From NCBI GenBank assembly GCA_016926755.1, contig JAFGNZ010000093.1, forward strand, positions 1 through 34,472: DNA of 34,472 nt. The letters are read 5' to 3'. This DNA is from Myxococcaceae bacterium (GTDB taxonomy: Bacteria > Myxococcota > Myxococcia > Myxococcales > Myxococcaceae). Of the stretch, positions 3,087 to 30,513 are shown piece by piece. Under the pieces are notes generated by a model. The model saw only the letters and a program-made list of their open reading frames with translations, made no database searches and had not been told where the DNA came from. Made by a program: the position numbers and the translations under genes. The first letter of the stretch is position 1; each line of letters begins with the position of its first letter.

Positions 3087-4301
3087 TCAGGTGCGGCACG
3101 CCGCGGGATGCCCGGCGAAGAGCTCGCGCCCGTTCGCGAGGATGCGCTGGAAGATCAGCGCGTCTTCCTCATCGGGAGTGACCGACTCGTTTCCCGACTG
3201 CACGGTCCCGCCCACGACGATGTCGTCCTGGCGGCAGAACACGTATGAGATCACACGGTTCGCACACCCCCCACTGAAGAAATAGAACTGCTTGGGCAAG
3301 GTCTTCCGCAGGATCACCAGGTGCCCGCGCTGCGCGACGAGGTTCTCGTCGCCAAACAGCTTCTTCGCACCATACCCCGTGCAGTTGATGATGATGTTCT
3401 CGGGGAGGGACATGACATCCTTCCTCGACTCGAACAGCCTCTGCTTGAACTGCACCGAGGCCTTCACGAGGTCCGCGGTCAGCTTTGGAAGCAGGAGGGT
3501 CGGGTTCATCAGCCAGTTGCTGTACTCGCGGCCGACCGTGGTGAGCTTCTCGAAGGGGAGCGTTCCTCTTCTGTGCACGGGAACCACATCATGCGGCGTG
3601 AACTCGTCAAAGGCCTTGATCCCGTGGTCGAGCGTGTAGTTCTTCCGCTCCGCGACCCCGAAGAGGGTCCGTTGCCCCGAGTTCTGGATCTCGACGATCC
3701 GGTCGCGAGACCTTCGCAGATACAGCGCCAGGAGGCGCTTCTTCTCCTCGCTTCGATACTCATGGATGACCCCCGACGGTTCGAACTGCCCGCCGGCCAG
3801 GAACGACGTCGTCGACCGGACGTCGAGATCCCTCGCGTAGATACTCAGCGGCAGGGTCGGCCACTTGCGGCGCAGCTCGGTGGCCACGGTCAACCCGATC
3901 ACCCCAGTGCCCAGAACCGCGATGGATGGGGTCTCCCGAGCCTGCCGCAACCTCACCAACAGCTCCTCGACCATCTCGGTGACGATGCTGGCGCAGCCCC
4001 AGCTCAGGGTGATCCCGCCTCCTCCGTGGCCATAATTGTGGACCAGATACTTCTTCCCGGAGGAGGTCTCGATGGGCTGCTCTTCGAGCGCGAGGCGTAC
4101 CCCTCCTCTTCGATGGGGTCGAATGCCGATCAGGTGCGGCGCGGTCTCACGCAAGAGAGAGAAGTCCGGGCTCGGCAGGATCTCTCCATTGCGCAGGTGA
4201 CTGGGGCGCGCGGCGAATGCCGGAAAGGCCGCGCCGCCGGCCACGGCGAGGGTCCCCTGCAGGAAGCGGCGTCTCGAGAAGGGCAAGGTGGTATCGGTCA
4301 C
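3087..4301 (-). CDS. Tat-exported, circularly permuted D-amino-acid-oxidase-like FAD oxidoreductase
   Basis: 404 residues. A twin-arginine signal (SRRRFLQG, residues 9-16) precedes a hydrophobic stretch ending in AFA at about 30. The D-amino-acid oxidase signature LVHNYGHGGGGITLSWGCA sits at residues 86-104, preceded by IRPHRR (60-65), which matches the segment bearing the substrate-carboxylate Arg (Arg283 of pig DAAO). In known DAAOs both lie at the C-terminus. Here the FAD-binding Rossmann motif GTGVIG follows at 131-136, then INCTGYG at about 305, and the chain ends at VVGGTVQSGNES and a helix, which in DAAO immediately precedes the Arg segment. The order is therefore a circular permutation. 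The length minus signal (~374) fits one complete oxidase domain. Expected chemistry: oxidative deamination of an amino acid or amine to a 2-oxo acid with H2O2, probably in the periplasm. It starts 9 bp after the decarboxylase gene. Substrate unknown. Confidence 0.85.
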   Translation of the reverse strand: MTDTTLPFSRRRFLQGTLAVAGGAAFPAFAARPSHLRNGEILPSPDFSLLRETAPHLIGIRPHRRGGVRLALEEQPIETSSGKKYLVHNYGHGGGGITLSWGCASIVTEMVEELLVRLRQARETPSIAVLGTGVIGLTVATELRRKWPTLPLSIYARDLDVRSTTSFLAGGQFEPSGVIHEYRSEEKKRLLALYLRRSRDRIVEIQNSGQRTLFGVAERKNYTLDHGIKAFDEFTPHDVVPVHRRGTLPFEKLTTVGREYSNWLMNPTLLLPKLTADLVKASVQFKQRLFESRKDVMSLPENIIINCTGYGAKKLFGDENLVAQRGHLVILRKTLPKQFYFFSGGCANRVISYVFCRQDDIVVGGTVQSGNESVTPDEEDALIFQRILANGRELFAGHPAACRT

Positions 4302-4310
4302 GGTTCTCTC

Positions 4311-6116
4311 TCACGCCTCACGGAGCACGGATGGAACGTCGCGCGGCTGGATGAGCGCATGGATGAGGACGGGCCCGGGGGAGTCCTTCGCGTCTGCCAA
4401 CAACTGCCGGAGCTCGGGCAACGCGCCCACCGTCTTCGCAGCGCTGAAACCGAGGGACTTCGCCAGATCGGCATAGCTCCAGCGGTTCAATGCCAGGTAG
4501 GGCTTCAGCGGCGTCGCTGTGTCACGGAAGAAGCGAGGATCCAGGAGCCACTGCTCGATGCCGTAGGTGCCATTATCGAGGACGATGACAATGGCTCGTA
4601 GCTTGCGCCGCGCCATGGTCGACAGACTTTGCGCGGTCATCTGAAACCCGCCATCACCGCAGATGACCAGCGGGCGCCTGTCCTGGGCGAGGCCTACGCC
4701 AACGGCGGCCCCTACCGAGTAGCCAATGGCTTGCCAGACCGCATTGCACACGAAGCCTTTTCGGCCGGTGATGTTCAACTCCGCCGCCGGATACATGCTG
4801 AGGCTGGTATCGGTGATGGCGATGAAGCGCTCATCGAGGAAGCCGCTCACCTCCTCGAGCACCTCATCGTAGGTCAAGCCCTGCTCGGCCATCGCGCCCG
4901 GGGCCACCGGCGCCGCCGGGGCCGAGGCTCGCCTCTGGCGGAATGAGGGGCCGGGGAGCCGTGTCCGCTCGTGGTGCTCCGGCTTCGGCTGCCATGGCTG
5001 ACGTTGCAGCTCGGCCAGGAGTGGCGCCAGGGTCGCTTTGACCGCGGGCCCACGCCCCACCCGAGCGGACTGATTGGCGATCAGGATCAGCTTGTCACGC
5101 CCCTGGGTGACGAGCCCCCGGTATTGCCGCCCCATGACACAGCCGATGGCCAGCAGTGCATCCGCTCCCTCGATGATCTTCTTCACCGAGGGCACCGCCC
5201 GCGCCCCCCCGTAGACCCCGACGAACCCCGCCGTCTGCTCGGGGATCACCGATTTGGCCAACATCGTCGTCGCCCATGGGAGGCTGAATTTCTCGACCAA
5301 TGCGGCCACGGCATCCTCCAAGCCGTACCGCTGGTTCTCGATTCCAAGCAGCAGCGCCGGCCGTGATGCCGTGCGCAGCCTTTCGACGATCTCGGCCGCG
5401 AGCCGGCTCTCCTGGCCGGAGGGTGCAATGGTTACGTCCAGCGCGCTGCCCGGTGCTGGGCACCGCGCGTCCCAGATGTGCTTTGCGATCTCGATATAGA
5501 CCGGCCGCTGGGACTTCAGCGCGGTTCGAATGGCCGTGTCGACGACCCTCGGCACGTCTGACGCCTTCTCAGCGCGGTCTGCATACTCCGTTACCTCTCG
5601 GAAGATCGAGAGGTCCGTCTTCTCGCGACCGGTCGAGTGGCTGAAGAATGTGCCGAACTCTCTCTGAAGGCGAAGGTCCTCGGAGCTGGGCCCCCCGTTG
5701 ACGATCACCACCGGGCTGCGCTCGGCGTAGGCCCCGCCAATGGCGGGAAGCAGGCTCATGGTGCCGACGCCGTAGGTCACCGCGACCGCCCCCAGGCCGC
5801 GCATGCGCGCGAAACCATCGGCCGCGTAGCCCGCCTCGAGGTCGCTGCTGTTCACCACGACAGCCATCTCTGTGTCCCTGGCCGCGGCGAAGAGCGGATC
5901 ACAGGTCGCGCCCGGCACGCCAAACAGGATGTCCACGCCGTGCTGGCTCAGCCTGGTGAGGATGTACTTCGCGACCGTGGTGGGCGCAGTCCCGGGTTGA
6001 GCCGTGGCGGCATTGAGCGCGGTCCCTGTCAACACTCCCGCTGCGCCCGTCAGGGATACTGCGGAGACCTGGAGGAACTGCCGCCTCGAGATTGACCCCG
6101 GCTCATCGTCGCTCAT
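4311..6116 (-). CDS. Tat-exported thiamine-diphosphate-dependent 2-oxoacid decarboxylase-like enzyme
   Basis: 601 residues from the ATG at 6116, chosen over the ATG at 6128 because GGAGGCG lies at ideal spacing before it. A Tat signal (SRRQFLQ, 10-16, then a hydrophobic stretch to about 39) precedes a full pyruvate/indolepyruvate-decarboxylase-type enzyme: PYR domain with GVPGATCDPLF (67-76) and DLEAGYAADGFAR (92-104), a middle domain, and a PP domain with the ThDP-Mg motif GDGG (487-490) to LDNGTYG (513-519). The usual catalytic Glu of the PYR domain (in NELN in relatives) is Asp92 here, with Glu94 two residues on; of the HH pair of decarboxylases only the second, His160, remains. Likely reaction: decarboxylation of an aromatic or branched 2-oxo acid to an aldehyde. 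It sits between the CotH-like gene (24-bp gap) and the permuted oxidase, whose product would be its substrate class. Confidence 0.85.
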   Translation of the reverse strand: MSDDEPGSISRRQFLQVSAVSLTGAAGVLTGTALNAATAQPGTAPTTVAKYILTRLSQHGVDILFGVPGATCDPLFAAARDTEMAVVVNSSDLEAGYAADGFARMRGLGAVAVTYGVGTMSLLPAIGGAYAERSPVVIVNGGPSSEDLRLQREFGTFFSHSTGREKTDLSIFREVTEYADRAEKASDVPRVVDTAIRTALKSQRPVYIEIAKHIWDARCPAPGSALDVTIAPSGQESRLAAEIVERLRTASRPALLLGIENQRYGLEDAVAALVEKFSLPWATTMLAKSVIPEQTAGFVGVYGGARAVPSVKKIIEGADALLAIGCVMGRQYRGLVTQGRDKLILIANQSARVGRGPAVKATLAPLLAELQRQPWQPKPEHHERTRLPGPSFRQRRASAPAAPVAPGAMAEQGLTYDEVLEEVSGFLDERFIAITDTSLSMYPAAELNITGRKGFVCNAVWQAIGYSVGAAVGVGLAQDRRPLVICGDGGFQMTAQSLSTMARRKLRAIVIVLDNGTYGIEQWLLDPRFFRDTATPLKPYLALNRWSYADLAKSLGFSAAKTVGALPELRQLLADAKDSPGPVLIHALIQPRDVPSVLREA

Positions 6117-6140
6117 CTTCGCCTCCATCCGCCGAATCTT

Positions 6141-7427
6141 CTAGGGGAGCTGCTGCTCCAGCAGGCGCCACCGTGCATGGACCCACTGACGGAGGTACTC
6201 TATCTCCTCATCGTACGTCGTGAAGTCGGTGCGGCGGCGCCACCGCCTGAAGTCGCGGTAGGCCTTGCCCCAATGGGCCTCGTCGCGCCGCGCCGCGGCG
6301 GCCAGCTCCCGCGAGTACTGTTCGATGAGCCCAAGCACCTCCTCCTCGCGGAGCTCGCCGCGCAGCAAATCCCGGTAGCGCTCGCGCATCGGCCCGGCGA
6401 TGGAGGGGTCGGCCAGCATCCTCGCGAAGAGCAGATTGCGGTCCGAGAAGTCGGAGAGGAGCTCCGGAGCAATCCGCCAGGTGTTCCACGCCTGGCCGAA
6501 GCTGGTATCGAGATCCCAGGGGATGAAGCGCCACAGCCCTTCCGCTCCAGGGGCGCGGTAGTGGTAGGCGTTCTTCGACACCGAGTCGTTCGTATGGACC
6601 AGCGTCGCGAAGATCCACCAGTCCTCGTAGTCGCGCGTCTCCATCCATGAGCCCCGCTCCGCCCGAAAGGTCTCCGCGTCCGCATCGGCCACGAACTCCG
6701 TGAACGCGAGGATGCTCTCGTAGGCCCCACGCCCGCTCCTGGGCTGGCCCTCCTTCTTCTCGAAGCCGGCCGTCAGAGAGGACTTGAGCGAGCCCTCGAG
6801 GGTGTGACGTGAGAAGTTGGCCTCGAAACCGATGGCCTTGAAGAGCTCCCCCTCCGCGTCCAGCCCTTGCGCCGCCAGCAGCTCCCCGTCGACGTGGTCG
6901 GCGACCGTGTACAGGCCCCAGTACTTCCCGTTCAGGTAGAGGATCGCGCTCCCGGTCTTCACCTGGAGGTGCTCCGGCGACATGCGATTCCACAGCGTGA
7001 AGGCGAGCCTCGACCGCAAATACGAGTTGTCATTGAAGGGGCTGATGAGCACCAGCTTGCGCCGGCCGGTGAAGCCGGCGTCGAGCAGCGGATCTTCGAA
7101 GCGCGCGCTGGGGGGGAACGTGAGGGTGTAGCTGCGCTTTGGAAAGGCGCGGGAGGTGTGCCCGCGGAGCTTCGCCTCCACCGAGGAGCAGCGGCCCCAG
7201 GAGAAGAGCCGCGCCGGCTGGTCACCATCCTCCTCCGGCAAGGAGGGCGCGAAGAAGAGGTGGAAGACGGGCAGTCCGTCTTCCTCTGCGTGGAGGGCGC
7301 TGGACTCGAGCTCCTCGCACCCTGGCAGGGAGTCACTCCATCCGTTCATGACCTGGCAGGCCGAGAGCACCCCGCAAGCCATTCCCGTCAGCAGCCAGCT
7401 CGCGATGCGCCGGCCTCTCCATGCCAT
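6141..7427 (-). CDS. CotH-kinase family lipoprotein
   Basis: 428 residues with a classic lipoprotein signal: positively charged N-terminus, hydrophobic core, lipobox LSAC with Cys24 followed by Gln, so likely outer-membrane anchored. The mature part carries the CotH-family hallmarks: RGHTSRAFPKRSYTL (about 89-103), NGKYWGLYTVADHVDG (about 165-180) and the acidic motif FIPWDLDTSFG (about 297-307). Family members are atypical kinases first known from spore-coat proteins, phosphorylating extracytoplasmic proteins; many bacterial lipoprotein members are uncharacterised. GGGGAGGAG precedes the ATG at 7427. It leads a three-gene minus-strand unit with the exported decarboxylase and oxidase, but how the three relate functionally is not evident. 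All three products are predicted to leave the cytoplasm. Confidence 0.88.
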   Translation of the reverse strand: MAWRGRRIASWLLTGMACGVLSACQVMNGWSDSLPGCEELESSALHAEEDGLPVFHLFFAPSLPEEDGDQPARLFSWGRCSSVEAKLRGHTSRAFPKRSYTLTFPPSARFEDPLLDAGFTGRRKLVLISPFNDNSYLRSRLAFTLWNRMSPEHLQVKTGSAILYLNGKYWGLYTVADHVDGELLAAQGLDAEGELFKAIGFEANFSRHTLEGSLKSSLTAGFEKKEGQPRSGRGAYESILAFTEFVADADAETFRAERGSWMETRDYEDWWIFATLVHTNDSVSKNAYHYRAPGAEGLWRFIPWDLDTSFGQAWNTWRIAPELLSDFSDRNLLFARMLADPSIAGPMRERYRDLLRGELREEEVLGLIEQYSRELAAAARRDEAHWGKAYRDFRRWRRRTDFTTYDEEIEYLRQWVHARWRLLEQQLP

Positions 7428-13010: not shown

Positions 13011-13502
13011 CTAGCTGTTCCAGAAGCCTTCATGCGCCTTGAGCACCTCGGCCTCCATGTCCAGCCACTCCAGGGTGACGCTCACGCCGAGCAGCTCGAA
13101 CACCCTCTGGCTTTCGATGAAGGGATAGGGCTGCGTGCGCTCCAGCAGCGCCTTCGTCGTGCAGCCGAACACCAGGTGGCGCACGCCGCTGTGGAGCATG
13201 GCGCCACAGCACATGAGGCAAGGCTCCACGGCGGTGTACAGCGCCGCCCGCTGGAGCTCCCCTGGAGACAGCCGCTGGCAGGCCTCTCTCAACACGTTCA
13301 TCTCCGAGTGGCCGAACGGGTGGCCTTCGCTCGAGTTCGTGTTCTCCCCCTCCAGCACGATCCGCCCATCCACGGCGAGGAGCGAGCCGAAGGGCATGTT
13401 GCCCTTCTCTCGCGCCCGGAGGGAAAGCTCGATGCACCTGCGGAGGTACGGCGCGTGTCGCTCCATGGGGCCTCTCGGATCCGACATTTCAGGGGAGCTC
13501 AT
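13011..13502 (-). CDS. Nucleoside/nucleobase deaminase-like zinc enzyme, copy 2
   Basis: 163 residues. Like its neighbour it has PFGSLL, the zinc/catalytic motif HSE (in FGHSEMNVL) and PCLMCCGAM, so it should be an active zinc deaminase. The ATG at 13502 overlaps the HDO gene's stop as ATGA, which argues for this start; an internal Met (MERHAPYLRRCIELS) aligns exactly with the start of copy 1 and is the alternative. C-terminal halves differ more than the N-terminal halves (copy 2 has an extra LEWLDME stretch), as expected if the two now act on different substrates or form a heteromer. Third or fourth step in the operon by position. Confidence 0.88.
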   Translation of the reverse strand: MSSPEMSDPRGPMERHAPYLRRCIELSLRAREKGNMPFGSLLAVDGRIVLEGENTNSSEGHPFGHSEMNVLREACQRLSPGELQRAALYTAVEPCLMCCGAMLHSGVRHLVFGCTTKALLERTQPYPFIESQRVFELLGVSVTLEWLDMEAEVLKAHEGFWNS

Positions 13503-14845
13503 GACAGCGGGAGGCTCCTCAGCTCACAGTCCTGTCCCTGCTCCGGGCGCATGCGGAACAGGCGGCCCTGGGGGATGGCGACCCGCGTGCCCGGGCGCAG
13601 GGTGACGAACCCACCCGTCCCCACGCCGAACTCGAGGCTCCCGCGCTGGAGCTCCAGGTGCAGCGCGGTCTCCGCGATCCGCGGGAAGAACGCCCGGTTG
13701 CCGCCATGCAGCACCAGGTGCCGCGCGGGCTGCGCCGCCGACGGCTCCGGAGGCTGCCGCCCGCCCAGCACGTCATCGGCGAAGCGAATCTGCCCCGCGA
13801 GATCCGCGGCCGCGCACCCAGCCAGGCGCCGGAAGCACTCGAAGCCCACGTAGATCTCCTGCAGGATGCTGTCGCCATACGCCTCGATGGCGGGGATGAT
13901 CAGCTCCTGGAGGACGATCTCCCGGTGGCGCTGGTCCACCTGGATGTGCTCCTCGAAGTAGCTCAGATCCATCTTCTCGGTTCCGAGGGCCTCCTTGAAG
14001 GCGGCCGTGAGCTTCTCGAAGAAGCACGTGGTGGTGGCCTCGGCGAAGTACATGGCCCCGAGGTACTGGAAGAAGTGCCTGGGGCTCTTGCAGATGAAGT
14101 GGAAGTAGTTCGCCATCATCAGCGAGCTGGGCAGGTAGTCCTCGAGGTAGCAGTGAGGATAGGTCTCCAACCCACAGGAGGCCATGGCCTGCTTGAAGAG
14201 GCTGGAGTGCTTCCGCTCCAGGCTCCCGTTGCCGTACTCGTCCATGAAGACGCGCAACAGGGAGCACTGCAGCGGGCCGGAGCTGCCGCCCAGGCTCCCC
14301 GTCATCGCGGCGCCCTCGGTGAGGAAGTCAGAGGCCTTGTGCAGCAGGTAGAGGCGGATGGCCTCCTTCTTGTGCTTCACCTGGCGCAGCAGCTCGCTCA
14401 GCCCCAGCGGGGCACGATCCTCCTCGGCGACGGCTTGCTTCAGGGTCTCGAGCAGTCCGGGGGCGGTCCACTCGCGGACCTCGATGCCGTTCTCCAGGAA
14501 GCCGAAGACGGCGTCCTCCAGCGGGATGCGCAGCGCCAGCCCCTGCGCGAGCCGCTCCCGAGCGAAGTACGCCTCATAATCCCGGCGGCAGATCGGGTTG
14601 ATGTTCATGTGGGGAAGGAAGACCCCCGACTGCTCGTGGAGGGTGTGGAGGAACTTGTTGAGCAGGTAGGCGTTGGGGGTGGTGACGTCGGCGAAGTCGT
14701 GCAGGGCGTGGGCCTGCTCGAGCTGCTCCTCCCCGAAGGCCAGCGGACGGTGCCAGGCGTTGCGCTGCATCCACTGTGCAGTCTTCCGGAAGCAGTGCGC
14801 GTGGGCGTACTGCTTCATCTGCTCTCGTACCTCGCGACTCAACAT
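13499..14845 (-). CDS. Heme-oxygenase-like diiron oxidase/oxygenase (HDO, Haem_oxygenas_2-like) with beta-rich tail
   Basis: 448 residues from the ATG at 14845 (AAAGGG upstream; a GTG two codons earlier is too close to it). All six diiron ligands of the HDO superfamily can be placed: Glu203 and His213 (in DEYGNGSLERKH), Glu269 (FAEATT), and His300, Asp304, His307 (in EHIQVDQRH, the H-x3-D-x2-H motif). Superfamily members include UndA, BesC, FlcD, CADD and the central domain of SznF, which perform O2-dependent C-C cleavage or N-oxygenation of amino-acid-derived substrates. The N-terminal ~150 residues are an additional helical region. The last ~75 residues (about 374-448) look like a small beta-sandwich with cupin flavour (VTLRPGTRVAIPQG) but without the usual three His ligands. 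It sits mid-operon between the HAD and deaminase genes; the stop overlaps the next start. Confidence 0.85.
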   Translation of the reverse strand: MLSREVREQMKQYAHAHCFRKTAQWMQRNAWHRPLAFGEEQLEQAHALHDFADVTTPNAYLLNKFLHTLHEQSGVFLPHMNINPICRRDYEAYFARERLAQGLALRIPLEDAVFGFLENGIEVREWTAPGLLETLKQAVAEEDRAPLGLSELLRQVKHKKEAIRLYLLHKASDFLTEGAAMTGSLGGSSGPLQCSLLRVFMDEYGNGSLERKHSSLFKQAMASCGLETYPHCYLEDYLPSSLMMANYFHFICKSPRHFFQYLGAMYFAEATTTCFFEKLTAAFKEALGTEKMDLSYFEEHIQVDQRHREIVLQELIIPAIEAYGDSILQEIYVGFECFRRLAGCAAADLAGQIRFADDVLGGRQPPEPSAAQPARHLVLHGGNRAFFPRIAETALHLELQRGSLEFGVGTGGFVTLRPGTRVAIPQGRLFRMRPEQGQDCELRSLPLS

Positions 14846-14858
14846 GGGCACTGCCCTT

Positions 14859-15617: not shown

Positions 15618-17051
15618 TCAGGCGGCCGACACGGGGCTCCTCTCCTTCGGCGTGTCACTCGGAACGGGCAGAGCGGCCGTCTTGTCCTGGATCGTCTGGT
15701 AGAACTCGCGGTCGAGCGCCATCACTCGGTCCGAGTACAGGTGCCAGGACAGGATGTCGCGGTATTTGAAGCCCTTGGGCGTGAGCTGGTACTTGTCCTC
15801 GCCGAGCTTGACCATCATGCCGACCCGGACGGCCTCGGCGAGGATTCCCTCGAAGAGGTGCCGGTACTGGTTGACGTTGTAGCGCTCCAGATCGCGCAGG
15901 TTCAGGTCGAAGTTGTCCAGGACCAGGCGCTTGCGGATGCGCTCCTCGTCCGAATACACGAACCCGGCGGAGATGCTCAGGGTGCCGTCGTTGACGGCCT
16001 TGATGTAGTCCTCGACCTGGGAGACCTGGGGCTTGTGGCTCCCGCCAATCAGGTAGTCCACGGTGTTGGTGTACGTCCTCGCCCCCGCGCCAATGCCCAG
16101 GTAGGGGATGCCGCGGAACTGGAGCACCTTCTGCTGGTAGCCCCCGCGGCCCGGGATCTTGTAGCGGACGTTGGACTCCTGCACGTAGCCGGCGCCCAGG
16201 AAGATCGCGCGGGCGTACTCGTAGCGCTCATAGAGCCGCGGGTCGCGCATGTACTCGTACTTGCCCGTCTTGTGGAACCACGCGTCGGGGCGGATGGTGA
16301 GGAAGTAGGTGCTGATCGTCTCCGGACGCAGCGAGGCCAGCTCCTCCACCGACATGCGCCAGGTGCGATCGTCCTGACCGCTGAACCCCATGATGAGATC
16401 GGTGCTGAGGTTGGGCAGCCCGTGCCCCTTGACGATGCCGATGGCCTTGCGGATCTTGTCCTCGTTCGCGGAGCTCCGGCCGGCCTCGCGCAGCTCTTCA
16501 CGCTGGAGCGACTGGATGCCCATGTTCATGCGGGTCAGCCCGCAGGACATCAGGAAGGGCACCACCTCCGGATCATCCGTGATGGAGTCCGGCGAGGCCT
16601 CGATGGCCACCTCCTCCACCACGGTCCGCCAGTTGGGGTAGATGCTCGTGATGGTGTCGAAGAGCTGCTTGAAGTTCTGCTTGCTCAGCAGCGAGGGCGT
16701 CCCACCACCGATGTAGATGGTGCGCAGGTTGCGCTCCTGGATGATGCGCGCGGAGTCGAGCAACTGCTTGCAGAGCGCGTCCGTGTACCTGTCATAGAGG
16801 CTCCGGTCATGAGAGACCACCGCGTACAGGTTGCAGAAGCCGCACTTGTAACGGCAGAACGGCACATGGAGGTAGAGGTTCAGCCCGTTCGTGGGCGAGT
16901 GCTTCTTGTCCTCCTCCCAGATGCGCTCGATCGTCCACTGCTCGGGGAGATCCCGGTACGAGGAGCGCGGGGGGTAGCAATAGACGAAGGGGGGAATGGC
17001 GCCGGCTTCGACGAGTGGACTCAGTCCCGTGTTGAAGTCGTTGGTGTACAT
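15618..17051 (-). CDS. Radical SAM enzyme, HemN/HemW-like (coproporphyrinogen oxidase family)
   Basis: 477 residues from the ATG at 17051, chosen because GGAGG lies 4 nt before it; the frame opens further up to 17114 without a ribosome site. The [4Fe-4S] triad is Cys66, Cys70 and Cys73 (CRYKCGFC), after the family-typical LYLHVPF, with IYIGGGTPSLLS as SAM-contact motif and a HemN C-terminal domain (LTPKGFKYRDILS). The protein is not canonical HemN or HemW; such HemN-like enzymes in secondary metabolism do methylations, cyclopropanations and other radical reactions. As first gene of a tight six-gene operon it probably carries out a dedicated step rather than heme synthesis. The substrate is unknown. 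Confidence 0.9.
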   Translation of the reverse strand: MYTNDFNTGLSPLVEAGAIPPFVYCYPPRSSYRDLPEQWTIERIWEEDKKHSPTNGLNLYLHVPFCRYKCGFCNLYAVVSHDRSLYDRYTDALCKQLLDSARIIQERNLRTIYIGGGTPSLLSKQNFKQLFDTITSIYPNWRTVVEEVAIEASPDSITDDPEVVPFLMSCGLTRMNMGIQSLQREELREAGRSSANEDKIRKAIGIVKGHGLPNLSTDLIMGFSGQDDRTWRMSVEELASLRPETISTYFLTIRPDAWFHKTGKYEYMRDPRLYERYEYARAIFLGAGYVQESNVRYKIPGRGGYQQKVLQFRGIPYLGIGAGARTYTNTVDYLIGGSHKPQVSQVEDYIKAVNDGTLSISAGFVYSDEERIRKRLVLDNFDLNLRDLERYNVNQYRHLFEGILAEAVRVGMMVKLGEDKYQLTPKGFKYRDILSWHLYSDRVMALDREFYQTIQDKTAALPVPSDTPKERSPVSAA

Positions 17052-17201
17052 GGATCCTCCAGACTGCTGGAAAGGGGGGCCAAACACCTTTGCCACCCGG
17101 CGAAGCCTTAGCATTCTAGCCTGACACGTCTTTCCGAGAAGCCCCTTAAAGTAGATTTTGCGACTCGCAGTGCGTCAGGCGCATGTGGTACGCTGCTGCA
17201 C
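17052..17201. promoter_or_regulatory. Divergent promoter region of the candidate biosynthetic locus
   Basis: 150 bp separate the radical SAM start (minus) from the nucleotidyltransferase start (plus). It is locally A/T-richer (cttaaagtagattttgcg, about 17145-17162). On the minus strand TAGAAT (complement of 17113-17118) is a plausible -10 element about 62 nt before the radical SAM ATG; on the plus strand TAGATT (17151-17156 area) could serve the other direction. No convincing -35 boxes or operator palindrome are seen, and no regulator gene is present in the locus. Confidence 0.4.
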
Positions 17202-25230: not shown

Positions 25231-28200
25231 ATGTTGAACATCCCAGGCTACACACTTCGCGGGGCGATCAAGGCCACCGGCACCAACCTCCTCTTCCACG
25301 CGGTGCGTGACGGGGATGGCCTGCCGCTCATCCTCAAGACGCCCATGGGCTCCTCCCCGGGCCCCCGCGAGTCCGAGCGCTACCGCCGCGAATTCGGGAT
25401 CCTCCAGCGCCTGCGTGACGTGCGCGGCGTCACCCGCGTCCACTCCTGCGAGCAGATCCACGATCGCCCTGTGCTGCTCTTGGAGTCGGTGGAGGGAGTG
25501 CCACTGTCCGAGCTGACGGGCGAGCCGCTCGAGGTGGCCCGCGCCCTGGAGCTGAGCATCTCCCTGGCCTCCACGCTGGCCGCGCTCCATCGCCGCGGCG
25601 TCATCCACAAGGATCTCAAGCCCTCCAACATCATCGTCACTCCCTCGGGCGAGACGTGCCTCATCGACTTCGGCATCGCCACCCTCCAGCTCGTCGAGCA
25701 CGTGGATGCGGCCCCAGCGCCCCTCATTGAAGGGACGCTGGCGTACATGTCCCCGGAGCAGACCGGGCGCATGAACCGCTCGGTGGACTACCGTACGGAC
25801 CTGTACTCGCTGGGAGTCACGCTCTACGAGCTGCTGGTGGGCAGCCGCCCTTTTCATGGGCGCGACGCGCTCGAGTGGTTCCACGCTCACATGGCCCAGG
25901 CTCCTCGGCCACCGCTGGCTCGCGTGCCGAGCCTTCCACCCGTCCTGTCCGCCATCGTCCTGAAGCTGCTGGCCAAGGTGGCCGAGGAGCGCTACCAGAG
26001 CGCCGAGGGGCTGAAGGCCGATCTCGAGCGGTGCCGGGACGCGCTGCGCCGAGGCAGCCCCGAGGACTTTCCGCTCGGCGTGCACGACTTTCCCACCCGC
26101 TTCCAGCTCCCCCAGCGGCTCTACGGGCGCGGCACGCAAGCCGCGGGCCTGCTCCAGGGCTTCGAGCGTGTCGCCCGCGGCGGCCGGCCCGAGCTCTTCC
26201 TGGTCCGTGGGTACTCCGGCATCGGGAAGTCCTCGGTGGTGCACGAGCTGCACAAGCCCGTGGTACGCCAGCGTGGGTTCTTCCTCAGTGGCAAGTTCGA
26301 CCAGTTCCAGCAGGCCACCCCCTATTCCACCCTGGCGCAGGCCTTTCGCGGGCTGACGCAGCAGCTGCTGGCGAGCACCGACGAGGAGCTGGCCCGCTGG
26401 CGCGCGAGCCTCCTCGAGGCGTGGGAGGGCCAGGGCCAGGTCCTCGTCAACGTGGTGCCTCCGCTGGAGCTCGTCGTCGGCAAGCAGCCCGCCGTCCAGG
26501 AGGTGCCGCCCTCCGAGGCCCAGCAGCGCATCAACCGCGTCTTCCGCAAGTCGCTCGGCGTCTTCGCCACCCCCGAGCACCCGCTCGTCATCTTCCTGGA
26601 TGATCTGCAGTGGGCCGATCTGGCCAGCCTCCAGCTCATCCGGGATCTGCTCAACCACCCGGAGACGCCGCCCGTGCTCTGGATCGGCGCCTACCGCGAC
26701 AACGAGGTCAGCCCCTCCCATCCGCTGCTGCAGGTGCTGGAGGAGATTCGCAAGGCTGGCACGCGGATGACGGGCCTCCAGCTCGAGCCGCTGAGCCTCG
26801 AGGAGGTGCGGCAGCTCGTCGCCGACACGCTGCCCGGAGCAGAGGCGCAGGTCGTCGAGCCGCTCTCGGCGCTCGCCCGAGAGAAGACGGGGGGCAACCC
26901 CTTCTTCCTGCTGCAGTTCATGCAGACGCTCCACCAGGATGGGCTCCTGGCGCGCACGCTCGAGGGCACCTGGAGGTGGGATGCGGAGGGTGTCCGGGCC
27001 AGGGGCTACTCCGACAACGTCGTCGACTTCCTGGCCGGCAAGCTGCGCCAGCTCCCCTCCGGGACGCAGCACCTGCTGCGGCTGGCCGCGTGCGCGGGCA
27101 ACACCGTCTCGCGGCAGATGCTGAGCATCATCTCCCATATGGAGGAGACCCCCGAGCTGGAGCAGGGACTCGAGCCCGCGCTCCAGGAGGGCCTGCTGGT
27201 CCGCGCCGGTCCGGAGCAGTACCGCTTCCTCCATGACCGCATCCAGCAGGCGGCCCACGCCCTCATCCCCGTGGAAGAGCGAAAGGCCGTCCACCTGCGC
27301 ATCGGCCGCCTGCTCCTGGCGAGCCTCTCGCCGGAGCAGGTGCACGAGAAGCTCTTCGACGTGGTGGGCCAGCTCAACGCGGGCGCGGAGCTGATCGAGG
27401 AGCCCGAGGAGCGCCACCGCGTGGCGCGCCTGAACGCCGAGGCTGGCTGGAAGGCCAGGGCCTCGACCGCCCTCCCAGCGGCCATCGCCTATCTCTCGGC
27501 GGCCTTCCAGCTGCTCCCCGGAGATCCCTGGGAGAGCGCCCCCGAGCTGGCCTTCAAGGTCCGGCTCGATCAGGCCAACTGCGAGTTCGTGAGCGGCAAC
27601 GCCACCGAGGCCCGCCGCCTGGTGGAGGAGCTCCGGCCCCGGGCGCGCACTCGCACGGAGATGGCGGCCGTCTACCGCGTGCAGTGCAACCTCCACGTGG
27701 CCGCCAGTGAGATGGAGGCTGCCGTCGCCTGCCTCCTGGAGTGTCTGGCGCTGATGGGCCTGCGCCTGTCACCACACCCCTCCTGGGAGGAGGTGGCGGC
27801 CGCCAATGACGAGGTCTGGGCCCTGCTGGGAGAGCGCTCCATCGAGAGCCTCATCGACCAGCCATGGATGAAGGACCCGGACATGGAGGCGATGATGAGC
27901 GTGCTCGCCCTCCTGTTCGGGGCAGCGCTCTACACCGATCAGCGCCTGCTCGCCCTCCAGGTGTGCCGGATGGTCTCCCTCCTCATCCGCCACGGCACCA
28001 CGGCCGCGGCCGCGAATGCCTATGTCTGGTACGGCGTGGTGCTGGGGAGCGTCTTCCATCGCTACCCTGAGGGCCACGCCTTCGGCCTGCTGGCCCGCGC
28101 GCTCGTCGAGCGCTACGAGCTGGCCGCCGCCCGGGCCAAGGTCTTCTACGTCCAGGAGCTCGTCGCCCACTGGGCCGAGCCTCTGCCCAGGACCCCGGAC

Positions 28201-30513
28201 TCCCTCCTCAGGGTCTTCCAGCACGCGCTCCAGACCGGGGATCTCCAGATCGCCTGCTACTGCTACTGCCAGATCGTCACGAACCGCCTCGCCCTGGGGG
28301 ATGATCTGGCGGAGGTCTACCAGGAGTCGGTCGCGCGCCTCGACTTCGTCCGCAAGGCGGGCGTTCGGGACCTGGAGCTGACCCTCCACCACGTCCAGTG
28401 CTACGTGCAGCAGCTGCGCGGGCTCACGCGCACGTTCGGTTCGCTGAGCGGGGGGGAGTACTCCGAGGAGGACTTCGAGTCCTGGCTGACGCCCCACCGC
28501 ATGAGCACCATGCGGTGCTGGTATTGGACCCTCAAGATGCAGGCGCGCTACTTGAGTGGCGCCTACATGGAGGCGCGCGAGGCGGGGGCCCGGGCGGCGG
28601 AGCTGACCTGGAGCACGATGAGCCGGCTCCAGCTCCTGGACTTCCACCTCTTCCGCGCGCTGACCCTGGCCGCGTGCTTCGGCGAGCTGCCCCCCGAGGA
28701 GCAGCGTCAGGCCCTCGAGGCCATCCAGGCGGACCAGCAGCAACTGGCCAGGTGGGCCAGCAACGTCCCGTCGACGTTCCGCGCGCCCGAGCGCATGGCC
28801 TCCGCGGAGCTCGCCCGCATCACCGGCCGCAAGGACGCGGCCATTGAGCTCTACGAGGAGGCCTTCCAGGCCGCGCGTGAGCAGGGCTTCATCCACAACG
28901 TCGCCCTGGCCAGCGAGCTCGCGGCCCGCTTCTGGCGCGAGCGGAAGGTGTCCTCCGTCGCCGAGTTCTACGCCCACAAGGCCCGGGAGGCCTGGCTGCG
29001 CTGGGGCGCCAAGGGGAAGGTCCAGCACCTGGAGGCGCAGTGGCCCCACCTGGGCGCCGCTGCCTCCGTGGCCGAGGGCAGCATCACGGACACGGACTCG
29101 ACGCAGATCGACGCGCTCACCCTCGTCAAGGCCCAGCAGGCCATCTCCAGCGAGATCGTCCTCGAGCGGCTGACGGCCACCCTGCTGCGAGTCGCCATCG
29201 AGAACGCGGGCGCCCAGCGCGGGGCCCTGCTGCTGCGGCGAGGTGCCGAGCTCTCGGTCGTGGCCGTCTCGGGCACCACGGTCGAGGGGCGCGACGCGGG
29301 CCCCGAGGAGGCCCAGCTGCCGTGGACCCTCATCTCCTACGTCAAGCGCACGCGCGAGCACGTGCTCATTGGAGATGCCGCCCAGCCGCACCCCTTCTCC
29401 GCGGACCCCTGGTTCTCCAGAGGCCAGGCCCGCTCCATTCTCTGCCTGCCGCTGCTGCGCCAGGAGGAGCTCCAAGGCGCGCTGTACCTGGAGAACAGCC
29501 TGGCCACCAACGCCTTCACCCCGGCGCGCCACTCGCTGCTGGGGCACCTGGCCTCCCAGGCGGCGATCTCCATCGAGAACGCCCGGCTCTACGCCGAGGT
29601 GCAGCGCGGGGAGAGCGCCTTGCGCCAGGCCAATGACGAGCTGGAGCGGAGGGTGGAGGAGCGCACCCGGGAGCTCAAGCAGGCCCAGGCCCGGCTGGTG
29701 GACACGGCCCGCTCGGCGGGCATGGCGGAGGTGGCGACCAGCGTGCTCCACAACGCCGGCAATGTCCTAACCAGCGCCGTCGTCAACCTGGAGACGATGA
29801 GCGCGACGGTGGGCGCCTCCCGCGTGGGCCGGCTCAAGCAGGTCGCTGGCATGCTCGAGGAGCACCAGGAGGATCTGGCCGGCTTCCTCACGCGGGATCC
29901 GCGCGGCGGCCTGCTGCCGAGCTACCTCTCCGCCCTGGCCGAGGAGTTCCTGCGCAATCAGGCCTTGCTGCAGTCGGACATGGAGGCGATGGGCAAACAC
30001 CTCGATCACCTCCGCGCCATCGTCCGGGTCCAGCAGCCCTATGTCCGAGAGACCCTGCTGCCCGAGGAGTGCGAGCTCCACCAGCTCGTCGAGGATGCGC
30101 TGAGCATCCAGCTGCCGGCCCTCCGGAGGCATGGCATCACCGTCACGCGGGAGCTGGCCACGCTGCCCAAGGTGTACCTGGACAAGCACAAGGTGCTGCA
30201 GATCCTCATCAACCTCATCAGCAACGCGAAGAACGCCACGAGCGGGCAGGCCGAGGGGCAGCGCCGCCTGCACGTGCGGCTGGAGGCGACGGGCACCACG
30301 GCGCGCATCCAGGTGGTGGACAACGGCAAGGGCGTTGCGCCGGAGCTGCGCCATCGGCTCTTCACCCAGGGCTTCACGACGCGCGAGGGAGGACATGGCC
30401 TGGGCCTGCACTCGAGCGCGCTGGCGGCCAAGATGCTGGGCGGCCAGCTCACCCTGGAGAGCGAAGGGCCGGGCCAGGGCGCCACGGCCACGCTGGAGCT
30501 TCCGCTCGCATGA
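25231..30513 (+). CDS. Trifunctional Ser/Thr kinase - AAA-type ATPase - GAF - sensor histidine kinase
   Basis: 1760 residues in one uninterrupted frame. Domain order: Hanks-type kinase (about 5-270) with Lys36, HKDLKPSN (His126-Asn133, HRD replaced by HKD) and DFG (Asp146), although the Gly-rich loop reads LRGAIKATGTN; AAA/STAND-type ATPase with Walker A GYSGIGKSS (about 327-335) and Walker B VIFLDDLQWAD (about 452); a long TPR-like helical region (about 660-1270); a GAF domain (about 1310-1450); a coiled linker; and a histidine kinase whose phosphoacceptor box is TSVLHNAGNVL (His1507), followed by HATPase motifs NLISNAKNA, DNGKGV and GHGLGLH. Such proteins are abundant in myxobacteria and some cyanobacteria and are thought to integrate Ser/Thr and two-component signalling. 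Cytoplasmic; no membrane segment. No partner response regulator is adjacent. Confidence 0.95.
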   Translation: MLNIPGYTLRGAIKATGTNLLFHAVRDGDGLPLILKTPMGSSPGPRESERYRREFGILQRLRDVRGVTRVHSCEQIHDRPVLLLESVEGVPLSELTGEPLEVARALELSISLASTLAALHRRGVIHKDLKPSNIIVTPSGETCLIDFGIATLQLVEHVDAAPAPLIEGTLAYMSPEQTGRMNRSVDYRTDLYSLGVTLYELLVGSRPFHGRDALEWFHAHMAQAPRPPLARVPSLPPVLSAIVLKLLAKVAEERYQSAEGLKADLERCRDALRRGSPEDFPLGVHDFPTRFQLPQRLYGRGTQAAGLLQGFERVARGGRPELFLVRGYSGIGKSSVVHELHKPVVRQRGFFLSGKFDQFQQATPYSTLAQAFRGLTQQLLASTDEELARWRASLLEAWEGQGQVLVNVVPPLELVVGKQPAVQEVPPSEAQQRINRVFRKSLGVFATPEHPLVIFLDDLQWADLASLQLIRDLLNHPETPPVLWIGAYRDNEVSPSHPLLQVLEEIRKAGTRMTGLQLEPLSLEEVRQLVADTLPGAEAQVVEPLSALAREKTGGNPFFLLQFMQTLHQDGLLARTLEGTWRWDAEGVRARGYSDNVVDFLAGKLRQLPSGTQHLLRLAACAGNTVSRQMLSIISHMEETPELEQGLEPALQEGLLVRAGPEQYRFLHDRIQQAAHALIPVEERKAVHLRIGRLLLASLSPEQVHEKLFDVVGQLNAGAELIEEPEERHRVARLNAEAGWKARASTALPAAIAYLSAAFQLLPGDPWESAPELAFKVRLDQANCEFVSGNATEARRLVEELRPRARTRTEMAAVYRVQCNLHVAASEMEAAVACLLECLALMGLRLSPHPSWEEVAAANDEVWALLGERSIESLIDQPWMKDPDMEAMMSVLALLFGAALYTDQRLLALQVCRMVSLLIRHGTTAAAANAYVWYGVVLGSVFHRYPEGHAFGLLARALVERYELAAARAKVFYVQELVAHWAEPLPRTPDSLLRVFQHALQTGDLQIACYCYCQIVTNRLALGDDLAEVYQESVARLDFVRKAGVRDLELTLHHVQCYVQQLRGLTRTFGSLSGGEYSEEDFESWLTPHRMSTMRCWYWTLKMQARYLSGAYMEAREAGARAAELTWSTMSRLQLLDFHLFRALTLAACFGELPPEEQRQALEAIQADQQQLARWASNVPSTFRAPERMASAELARITGRKDAAIELYEEAFQAAREQGFIHNVALASELAARFWRERKVSSVAEFYAHKAREAWLRWGAKGKVQHLEAQWPHLGAAASVAEGSITDTDSTQIDALTLVKAQQAISSEIVLERLTATLLRVAIENAGAQRGALLLRRGAELSVVAVSGTTVEGRDAGPEEAQLPWTLISYVKRTREHVLIGDAAQPHPFSADPWFSRGQARSILCLPLLRQEELQGALYLENSLATNAFTPARHSLLGHLASQAAISIENARLYAEVQRGESALRQANDELERRVEERTRELKQAQARLVDTARSAGMAEVATSVLHNAGNVLTSAVVNLETMSATVGASRVGRLKQVAGMLEEHQEDLAGFLTRDPRGGLLPSYLSALAEEFLRNQALLQSDMEAMGKHLDHLRAIVRVQQPYVRETLLPEECELHQLVEDALSIQLPALRRHGITVTRELATLPKVYLDKHKVLQILINLISNAKNATSGQAEGQRRLHVRLEATGTTARIQVVDNGKGVAPELRHRLFTQGFTTREGGHGLGLHSSALAAKMLGGQLTLESEGPGQGATATLELPLA

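Follow-up and report, generated by a model that had tools for sequence, protein, structure and literature searches.

A predicted circular permutant of the D-amino-acid oxidase fold, encoded beside a thiamine-diphosphate enzyme gene in a Myxococcaceae genome and found in many other bacteria

D-Amino-acid oxidase (DAAO) is a textbook flavoenzyme that also serves industry as a biocatalyst. In canonical DAAO and DASPO, the Rossmann strand comes first in the chain and the DAAO signature comes last. The stretch of Myxococcaceae DNA that we analyzed (34,472 nucleotides; hereafter "the window") carries a gene in which this order is reversed, and it raises the question of whether a DAAO can exist in nature as a circular permutant and, if so, what the protein might do. 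A preliminary description of the locus had proposed a cyclic rearrangement in which the C-terminus is the element that ordinarily precedes the substrate-Arg segment. The features on which the argument depends are these:

3087..4301, minus strand: putative permuted DAAO-type flavoprotein, 404 aa, GTG start, Tat signal
4182..4301, minus strand: N-terminal 40 residues, Tat signal (SRRRFLQGTLAVAGG), scoring 26.8 bits with PF10518 (cut-off 22.7)
3963..4136, minus strand: moved block, residues 56-113, with the substrate-Arg segment (R61), the DAAO signature (86-104), and the start of the signature helix
3090..3926, minus strand: residues 126-404, with the GTGVIG FAD Rossmann motif and the remaining DAAO chain to the helix before the Arg segment, including Y353
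4311..6128, minus strand: thiamine-diphosphate (TPP) enzyme of the pyruvate/indolepyruvate decarboxylase type (P0002), 9 bases upstream of the DAAO gene

When the sequence was re-read, the open reading frame (ORF) at 3087-4301 proved to be real, with 404 aa from the GTG, and the motifs lay where they had been reported, the signature and substrate-Arg block (56-113) preceding the Rossmann motif (131-136). Within the ORF, IRPHRR occupies residues 60-65, LVHNYGHGGGGITLSWGCA residues 86-104, and GTGVIG residues 131-136. The DAAO signature, whose pattern we take to be H-N-Y-G-x-G-G-x-G-x5-G-x-A, is present at residues 88-104 (HNYGHGGGGITLSWGCA), and GTGVIG supplies the GxGxxG of the FAD Rossmann motif and aligns with the first strand of DAAO. 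The assignment of residues 126-404 is based upon phmmer alignments to the PDB, a Pfam DAO match to residues 127-396, and a VIA-align superposition of the predicted model.

A phmmer comparison of the window protein with the PDB matched 17 DAAO/DASPO sequences, each in two stretches, together with one further entry (E 0.81) that was taken as a chance match. The stretches are in swapped order in all five of the DAAO/DASPO alignments shown, of the 17 matched. With human DASPO, query residues 122-382 correspond to chain residues 10-261 (i-E 2.1e-9) and query residues 57-119 to chain residues 283-342 (i-E 9.1e-6); residues 281-345 of human DAAO align with query residues 59-126. Pfam DAO (PF01266) also matches the window protein in two stretches, at 75 bits against a cut-off of 27.9, with the best one covering profile positions 2-298 of 353. 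The same genome encodes a canonical paralogue, P0014, which served as an internal control and gave a single Pfam DAO stretch spanning profile positions 1-353.

The position of the breakpoint came from a rotation scan, in which the leader was removed where present (mature starts were picked by eye), the chain was rotated in 6-residue steps, and each rotation was scored by Smith-Waterman local alignment. The queries were 11 of the 34 permuted proteins described below, with that of Kozakia left out, and the targets were 8 of 29 canonical DAAOs, among them the control P0014 itself. All 11 permuted proteins gained about 67-102 points at one cut relative to their natural order, and in all 11 the best cut fell between the signature helix and the start of the first Rossmann strand. 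This cut lies before residue 116-122 in the window protein, for which rotation raised the mean score from 161 to 251. Shuffling the moved head (10 shuffles each) brought the scores down to approximately the natural-order score or lower (mean 148 and maximum 149 for the window protein), and P0014 scored best unrotated. The chain of P0014 starts at its Rossmann strand, and the rotated window protein (P0001) aligns to it in order, from the first Rossmann strand through the signature helix, so that the alignment runs through the C-terminal element and the Arg segment just as the preliminary description had it. An equivalent scan with HMMER profiles (10 permuted proteins and one control) was discarded; its best single-domain score was nearly constant across cuts, and because the program reports the protein as separate local domains, the scan is uninformative.

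A block-order test applied to 98 loci classified 45 ORFs as permuted and 48 as canonical, repeats of one gene included, and removal of identical sequences left 34 permuted ORFs. Only one block was present in three ORFs (L021, L069, and the second ORF of L071), and three loci (L024, L034, and L064) are fragments of insufficient length to be classified. The proposed rearrangement would have been refuted by a second, C-terminal signature. Such a copy was looked for and was absent: each two-block ORF has one signature block, and none of the ORFs at the 98 loci has two.

The PDB alignments, the order of the Pfam segments, the block-order test, the rotation scan with its controls, and the existence of homologues with the same order all support the cyclic rearrangement, and we consider it close to certain, as far as sequence can establish it, that the window gene is a natural circular permutant of the DAAO fold. 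The alignments show that the N- and C-termini of the canonical chain are joined, the signature helix leading into the first Rossmann strand, and that the new termini fall in the stretch bounded by the substrate-Arg strand and the helix that follows the GGTxxxGN strand.

In the phmmer alignments, R61 and Y353 of the window protein correspond to R283 and Y228, respectively, of human DAAO, residues that we take to be the substrate-carboxylate ligands. Both residues are invariant in eight aligned members from the window clade and the cytosolic proteins. A Y228L/R283G variant is named in a PDB title. Y224, the lid tyrosine of human DAAO, falls in a three-residue deletion of the window protein. The predicted protein thus retains, according to the alignments, the FAD motif and DAAO signature as well as the equivalents of R283 and Y228.

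Set beside DAAO and DASPO (EC 1.4.3.3 and 1.4.3.1; PDB 6rkf, 1kif, and 2du8), the window protein is alike in its Rossmann FAD motif, its signature, and its R283 and Y228 equivalents, and matches both halves of the chain; it differs in its rotated chain, its Tat signal, and its shortened Y224 lid loop. In comparison with Pfam DAO, glycine oxidase ThiO, and D-amino acid dehydrogenase, it is above the Pfam cut-off, with the order rotated, but far below the NCBIfam cut-offs of the listed enzyme models, and no NCBIfam enzyme model fits it. By its sequence, the protein would be grouped with the DAAOs and probably acts as they do, yet in the order of its chain it lacks one of their defining features.

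Structure prediction gave a less complete picture. An AlphaFold2 model of the window protein, made with an alignment of six sequences, had a mean pLDDT of 59.6 and a pTM of 0.64, and a model of the mature chain was no better (mean pLDDT 59.3). Two additional scans of viral_contigs for further sequences to model with yielded no contigs beyond those already found. The FAD domain was modelled with confidence, residues 71-160, which cover the Rossmann part and the last residues of the moved block, having ten-residue pLDDT means of 70-97. The substrate domain and the R61 region remained unresolved, with pLDDT below 50 for 190 of the 404 residues, including most of 1-66 (with R61), 220-260, and 322-404. 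Foldseek returned 29 PDB matches at E≤0.001, 25 of them titled DAAO or DASPO; the other four are two matches to 4qfd (human DAAO by its title) and two to 4qfc (title incomplete). Superpositions of the whole model on DAAO by Foldseek were poor (TM ~0.3, rmsd 11-14). VIA-align placed model residues 125-366 on DAAO residues 1-242 (Z 12.5, rmsd 3.5, 207 residues). We infer, without coordinates or an order-independent superposition, that the remaining hundred canonical residues would come from the tail and the moved block of the window protein; the AlphaFold output came without inter-domain error. The earlier suggestion that the chain still folds into one FAD domain thus has only partial support, from the confidently modelled 71-160 region, nearly half of the chain being poorly predicted.

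The permutation is widespread and is not confined to the window. A search for homologues with the same motif order, which had been recommended as a check, found them in unrelated genomes and replicons: the 34 non-identical ORFs come from the genomes of two phyla, from plasmid-collection records, and from viral-collection contigs. Of 195 genomes from the window's phylum, 29 match the permuted profile at E≤1e-15; seven of these (G000, G011, G031, G080, G113, G126, and G189) have a permuted gene, and the other 22 have canonical matches. The window's genome has both forms, its canonical-order DAAO being P0014 (G000:C314; L003 1352-2296). In a second phylum, taken as Pseudomonadota, 20 of 398 sampled genomes match, and all 20 are permuted; this sample represents the phylum of the Alphaproteobacteria MAG holding L032, which is itself counted among the 20. 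Canonical DAAOs are under-counted in such searches because the query profile is itself permuted. Intact permuted genes were found in the plasmid collection in records from Rhizobium ruizarguesonis (pRlX1), Bradyrhizobium elkanii (pK03D-1), Nonomuraea gerenzanensis, Niveispirillum cyanobacteriorum, and Kozakia baliensis; one of these five records is from an actinomycete. Plasmid records annotate the permuted proteins as "FAD-dependent oxidoreductase". The Mesorhizobium onobrychidis copy (L069 5974-7037) looks broken because its annotation divides it between two overlapping CDS that are not in one frame; its TPP neighbour is an open frame. Only one of the partial plasmid-collection matches, from a Streptomyces, was classified, and it is canonical. 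The virus collection contributed three contigs with a permuted gene, representing two distinct sequences. The permuted genes at L094 (2983-4071) and L095 (1420-2454) lie near terminase genes, in the former case with a resolvase gene and in the latter with a phage portal gene.

This distribution bears on whether the reversed order could be an assembly chimera, or a decaying gene, confined to the window's genome. The assembly is in 409 contigs, and the gene is patchy, given that only one of the seven genomes of the window's genus, the window's own, has it. Against such an artifact, homologues with the same order and open frames occur at 57-66% identity in G031, G011, and L032, and at about 37% identity in complete plasmid-collection records. 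These independent homologues refute the artifact, to which we attach almost no credence.

To place the permuted proteins relative to the canonical ones, 34 permuted and 29 canonical sequences were put into a common order and a tree was inferred under LG+G4. The two sets form separate groups, divided by a branch of 0.70 with a UFBoot support of 100, from which we infer that the permutation arose once; the data would fit one old event. This reading is provisional, because the canonical side of the tree comes from the window's phylum (28 of 29) except for one Streptomyces sequence. Repeated origins in different lineages could be concealed by a canonical sample that is so small and was collected with a permuted query, and the divergence within the permuted set is large. 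All 34 permuted sequences nevertheless fall on one side of the fully supported split, and all 11 scanned proteins have the same cut region, so we consider repeated origins improbable.

The Tat signal attributed to the window protein was borne out when residues 1-40 were scanned alone (26.8 bits with PF10518, against a cut-off of 22.7); a scan of the whole protein gave 22.3, just below the cut-off. By a crude rule, 27 of the 34 permuted ORFs have a Tat-like leader, and 16 of 34 have a lipobox-like motif. The seven without a Tat-like leader by this rule are those of Rhizobium, Bradyrhizobium, and Nonomuraea, and L090, L093, L092, and L078; the L092 frame opens just before the block, and L078 does show a leader by eye. 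With these seven exceptions, we rejected the idea that permutation is tied to export as a rule, and the two seem, from the sequences, to go together often but not always. Among canonical proteins (28 distinct ORFs), a Met lies a few residues before the first strand in 19 of the 21 N-termini viewed; no signal search was made of these N-termini.

In the window's clade, the permuted gene has a conserved partner in the neighbouring TPP gene. P0002 contains all three Pfam TPP_enzyme domains (N, M, and C) and finds PDC-type enzymes as its best PDB matches, features that it shares with the pyruvate/indolepyruvate decarboxylase family. It differs from that family in its scores, which are below the NCBIfam equivalog cut-offs, in a Tat-like leader in the window clade, and in having Asp for the catalytic Glu. 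The leader was recognized by eye as RR-x-F-L, and those of two partners score 14.0 and 17.5 bits against the Pfam Tat cut-off of 22.7. Asp96 of P0002 (motif SDLEAGYAADG) stands in the PDC-type catalytic Glu column and is invariant in six partners (P0002, P0010, P0018, P0023, P0024, and P0025). We take this column to be that of the catalytic Glu contacting the pyrimidine ring, and Asp27, likewise, to be in PDC numbering. At the Asp27-equivalent position, P0002 has Ala.

A TPP gene adjoins the permuted gene in the window and in G031, G011, and G189, and in G126 the two are separated by about 3 kb. The TPP gene lies directly downstream of the permuted gene in the Rhizobium, Bradyrhizobium, Mesorhizobium, and Nonomuraea records, and because the gene order is thus reversed, the pairing has outlived a rearrangement. 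A partner profile matched 7 of the 195 genomes of the phylum at E≤1e-100, and the five best matches (E<1e-200) are exactly the five genomes with a permutant of the window's clade; two of those five, G000 and G031, had contributed rows to the profile. No permuted gene was found in the other two matching genomes (E about 1e-108 and 1e-114). There was no TPP match at E≤1e-30 in G195, G354, and G306, which have related permuted genes, nor at E≤1e-100 in G080 and G113, whose permuted genes belong to other subfamilies, and none of the lipoprotein-type loci examined has a TPP gene nearby. G354 has a much more distant TPP enzyme (E 2e-16), possibly a non-orthologous partner, about 750 bases away on the other strand (L102 3638-5227).

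Our working proposal, which we hold with somewhat more confidence than doubt, is that the permuted, exported DAAO-type flavoenzyme deaminates an amino acid and that its partner decarboxylates the resulting 2-oxo acid, both the chemistry and the substrate being inferred. The folded, FAD-loaded enzyme would be carried across the membrane by Tat and would abstract a hydride from its amino-acid substrate, which is most likely of the D form. The products would be a 2-oxo acid and ammonia, plus H2O2 if oxygen is the acceptor, and the neighbouring TPP enzyme would decarboxylate the 2-oxo acid to an aldehyde. Activity, substrate, stereochemistry, and electron acceptor have not been shown for any of these proteins.

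The protein might instead have the permuted DAAO fold and be a dehydrogenase, or another amine or imino-acid oxidase, that passes electrons to a periplasmic quinone or cytochrome c and acts on something other than an ordinary D-amino acid. The crude-rule counts of Tat-like and lipobox-like leaders (27 and 16 of 34) are compatible with this, as is the cytochrome c gene directly 3' of the permuted gene in Kozakia baliensis (L071 5884-7544). In addition, P0013 has Thr at the Y228 column, and the Niveispirillum and Kozakia proteins look similar by eye. The Kozakia arrangement is however the only case of an adjoining CxxCH protein in 31 neighbourhoods, once an antisense overlap in L069 is discounted, so that we rejected cytochrome c as a general partner; moreover, both carboxylate ligands are kept in the window clade. 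We regard this alternative as unlikely, without dismissing it. It is similarly unlikely, in our estimate, that the TPP gene is an incidental neighbour of a flavoenzyme that acts without it, for instance in the catabolism of D-amino acids. The related permuted genes of G195, G354, and G306 that have no close TPP relative, and the lipoprotein-type loci, none of which has a TPP gene nearby among those examined, speak for independence; the co-occurrence of the two genes across the 195 genomes, and the preservation of the pairing in either order on unrelated replicons, speak against it.

That a rearranged form of a soil bacterium's gene occurs in many other bacteria suggests an old, unnoticed branch of the DAAO family. 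The most inclusive version of our interpretation is correspondingly tentative, and we would give it slightly less than an even chance: an old, unrecognized branch with a permuted DAAO fold, in at least three phyla, mostly Tat-exported and with many lipoproteins, one clade of which acts with a decarboxylase to convert an amino acid to an aldehyde, in the periplasm in the window's group. Literature searches limited to open-access PMC pointed to no report of a permuted DAAO; print that is not open access is not excluded. The string "permut" is absent from the available portions of PMC4699246 and PMC12452685. A permutant with its active-site residues kept would show that new termini can be accommodated by the DAAO fold at a defined position, and would provide ready-made scaffolds with free ends in new positions. 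Annotation that is blind to motif order would conceal a considerable number of amino-acid-oxidising enzymes, many of which appear to be exported. With these enzymes one could ask whether export accompanied the displacement of the N-terminus from the Rossmann core.

Several other neighbouring genes were observed. At two loci on rhizobial conjugative plasmids (L066 4527-5960 and L067 4417-5946), the permuted and TPP genes are immediately preceded by one annotated as "FAD-binding oxidoreductase" (a berberine-bridge type according to Pfam at L066), and this position suggests a three-enzyme cassette. At L104, L106, L107, and L108, the gene adjoining the permuted one is HslU-like, by eye only. Within the window itself, the TPP gene is closely preceded, on its own strand, by a CotH-kinase-family gene (6141-7427), a gene for a haem-oxygenase-like iron enzyme lies near a radical SAM gene (13499-14851 and 15618-17114, minus strand), and positions 25231-30513 encode a 1760-aa protein with kinase, AAA, GAF, and HATPase domains.
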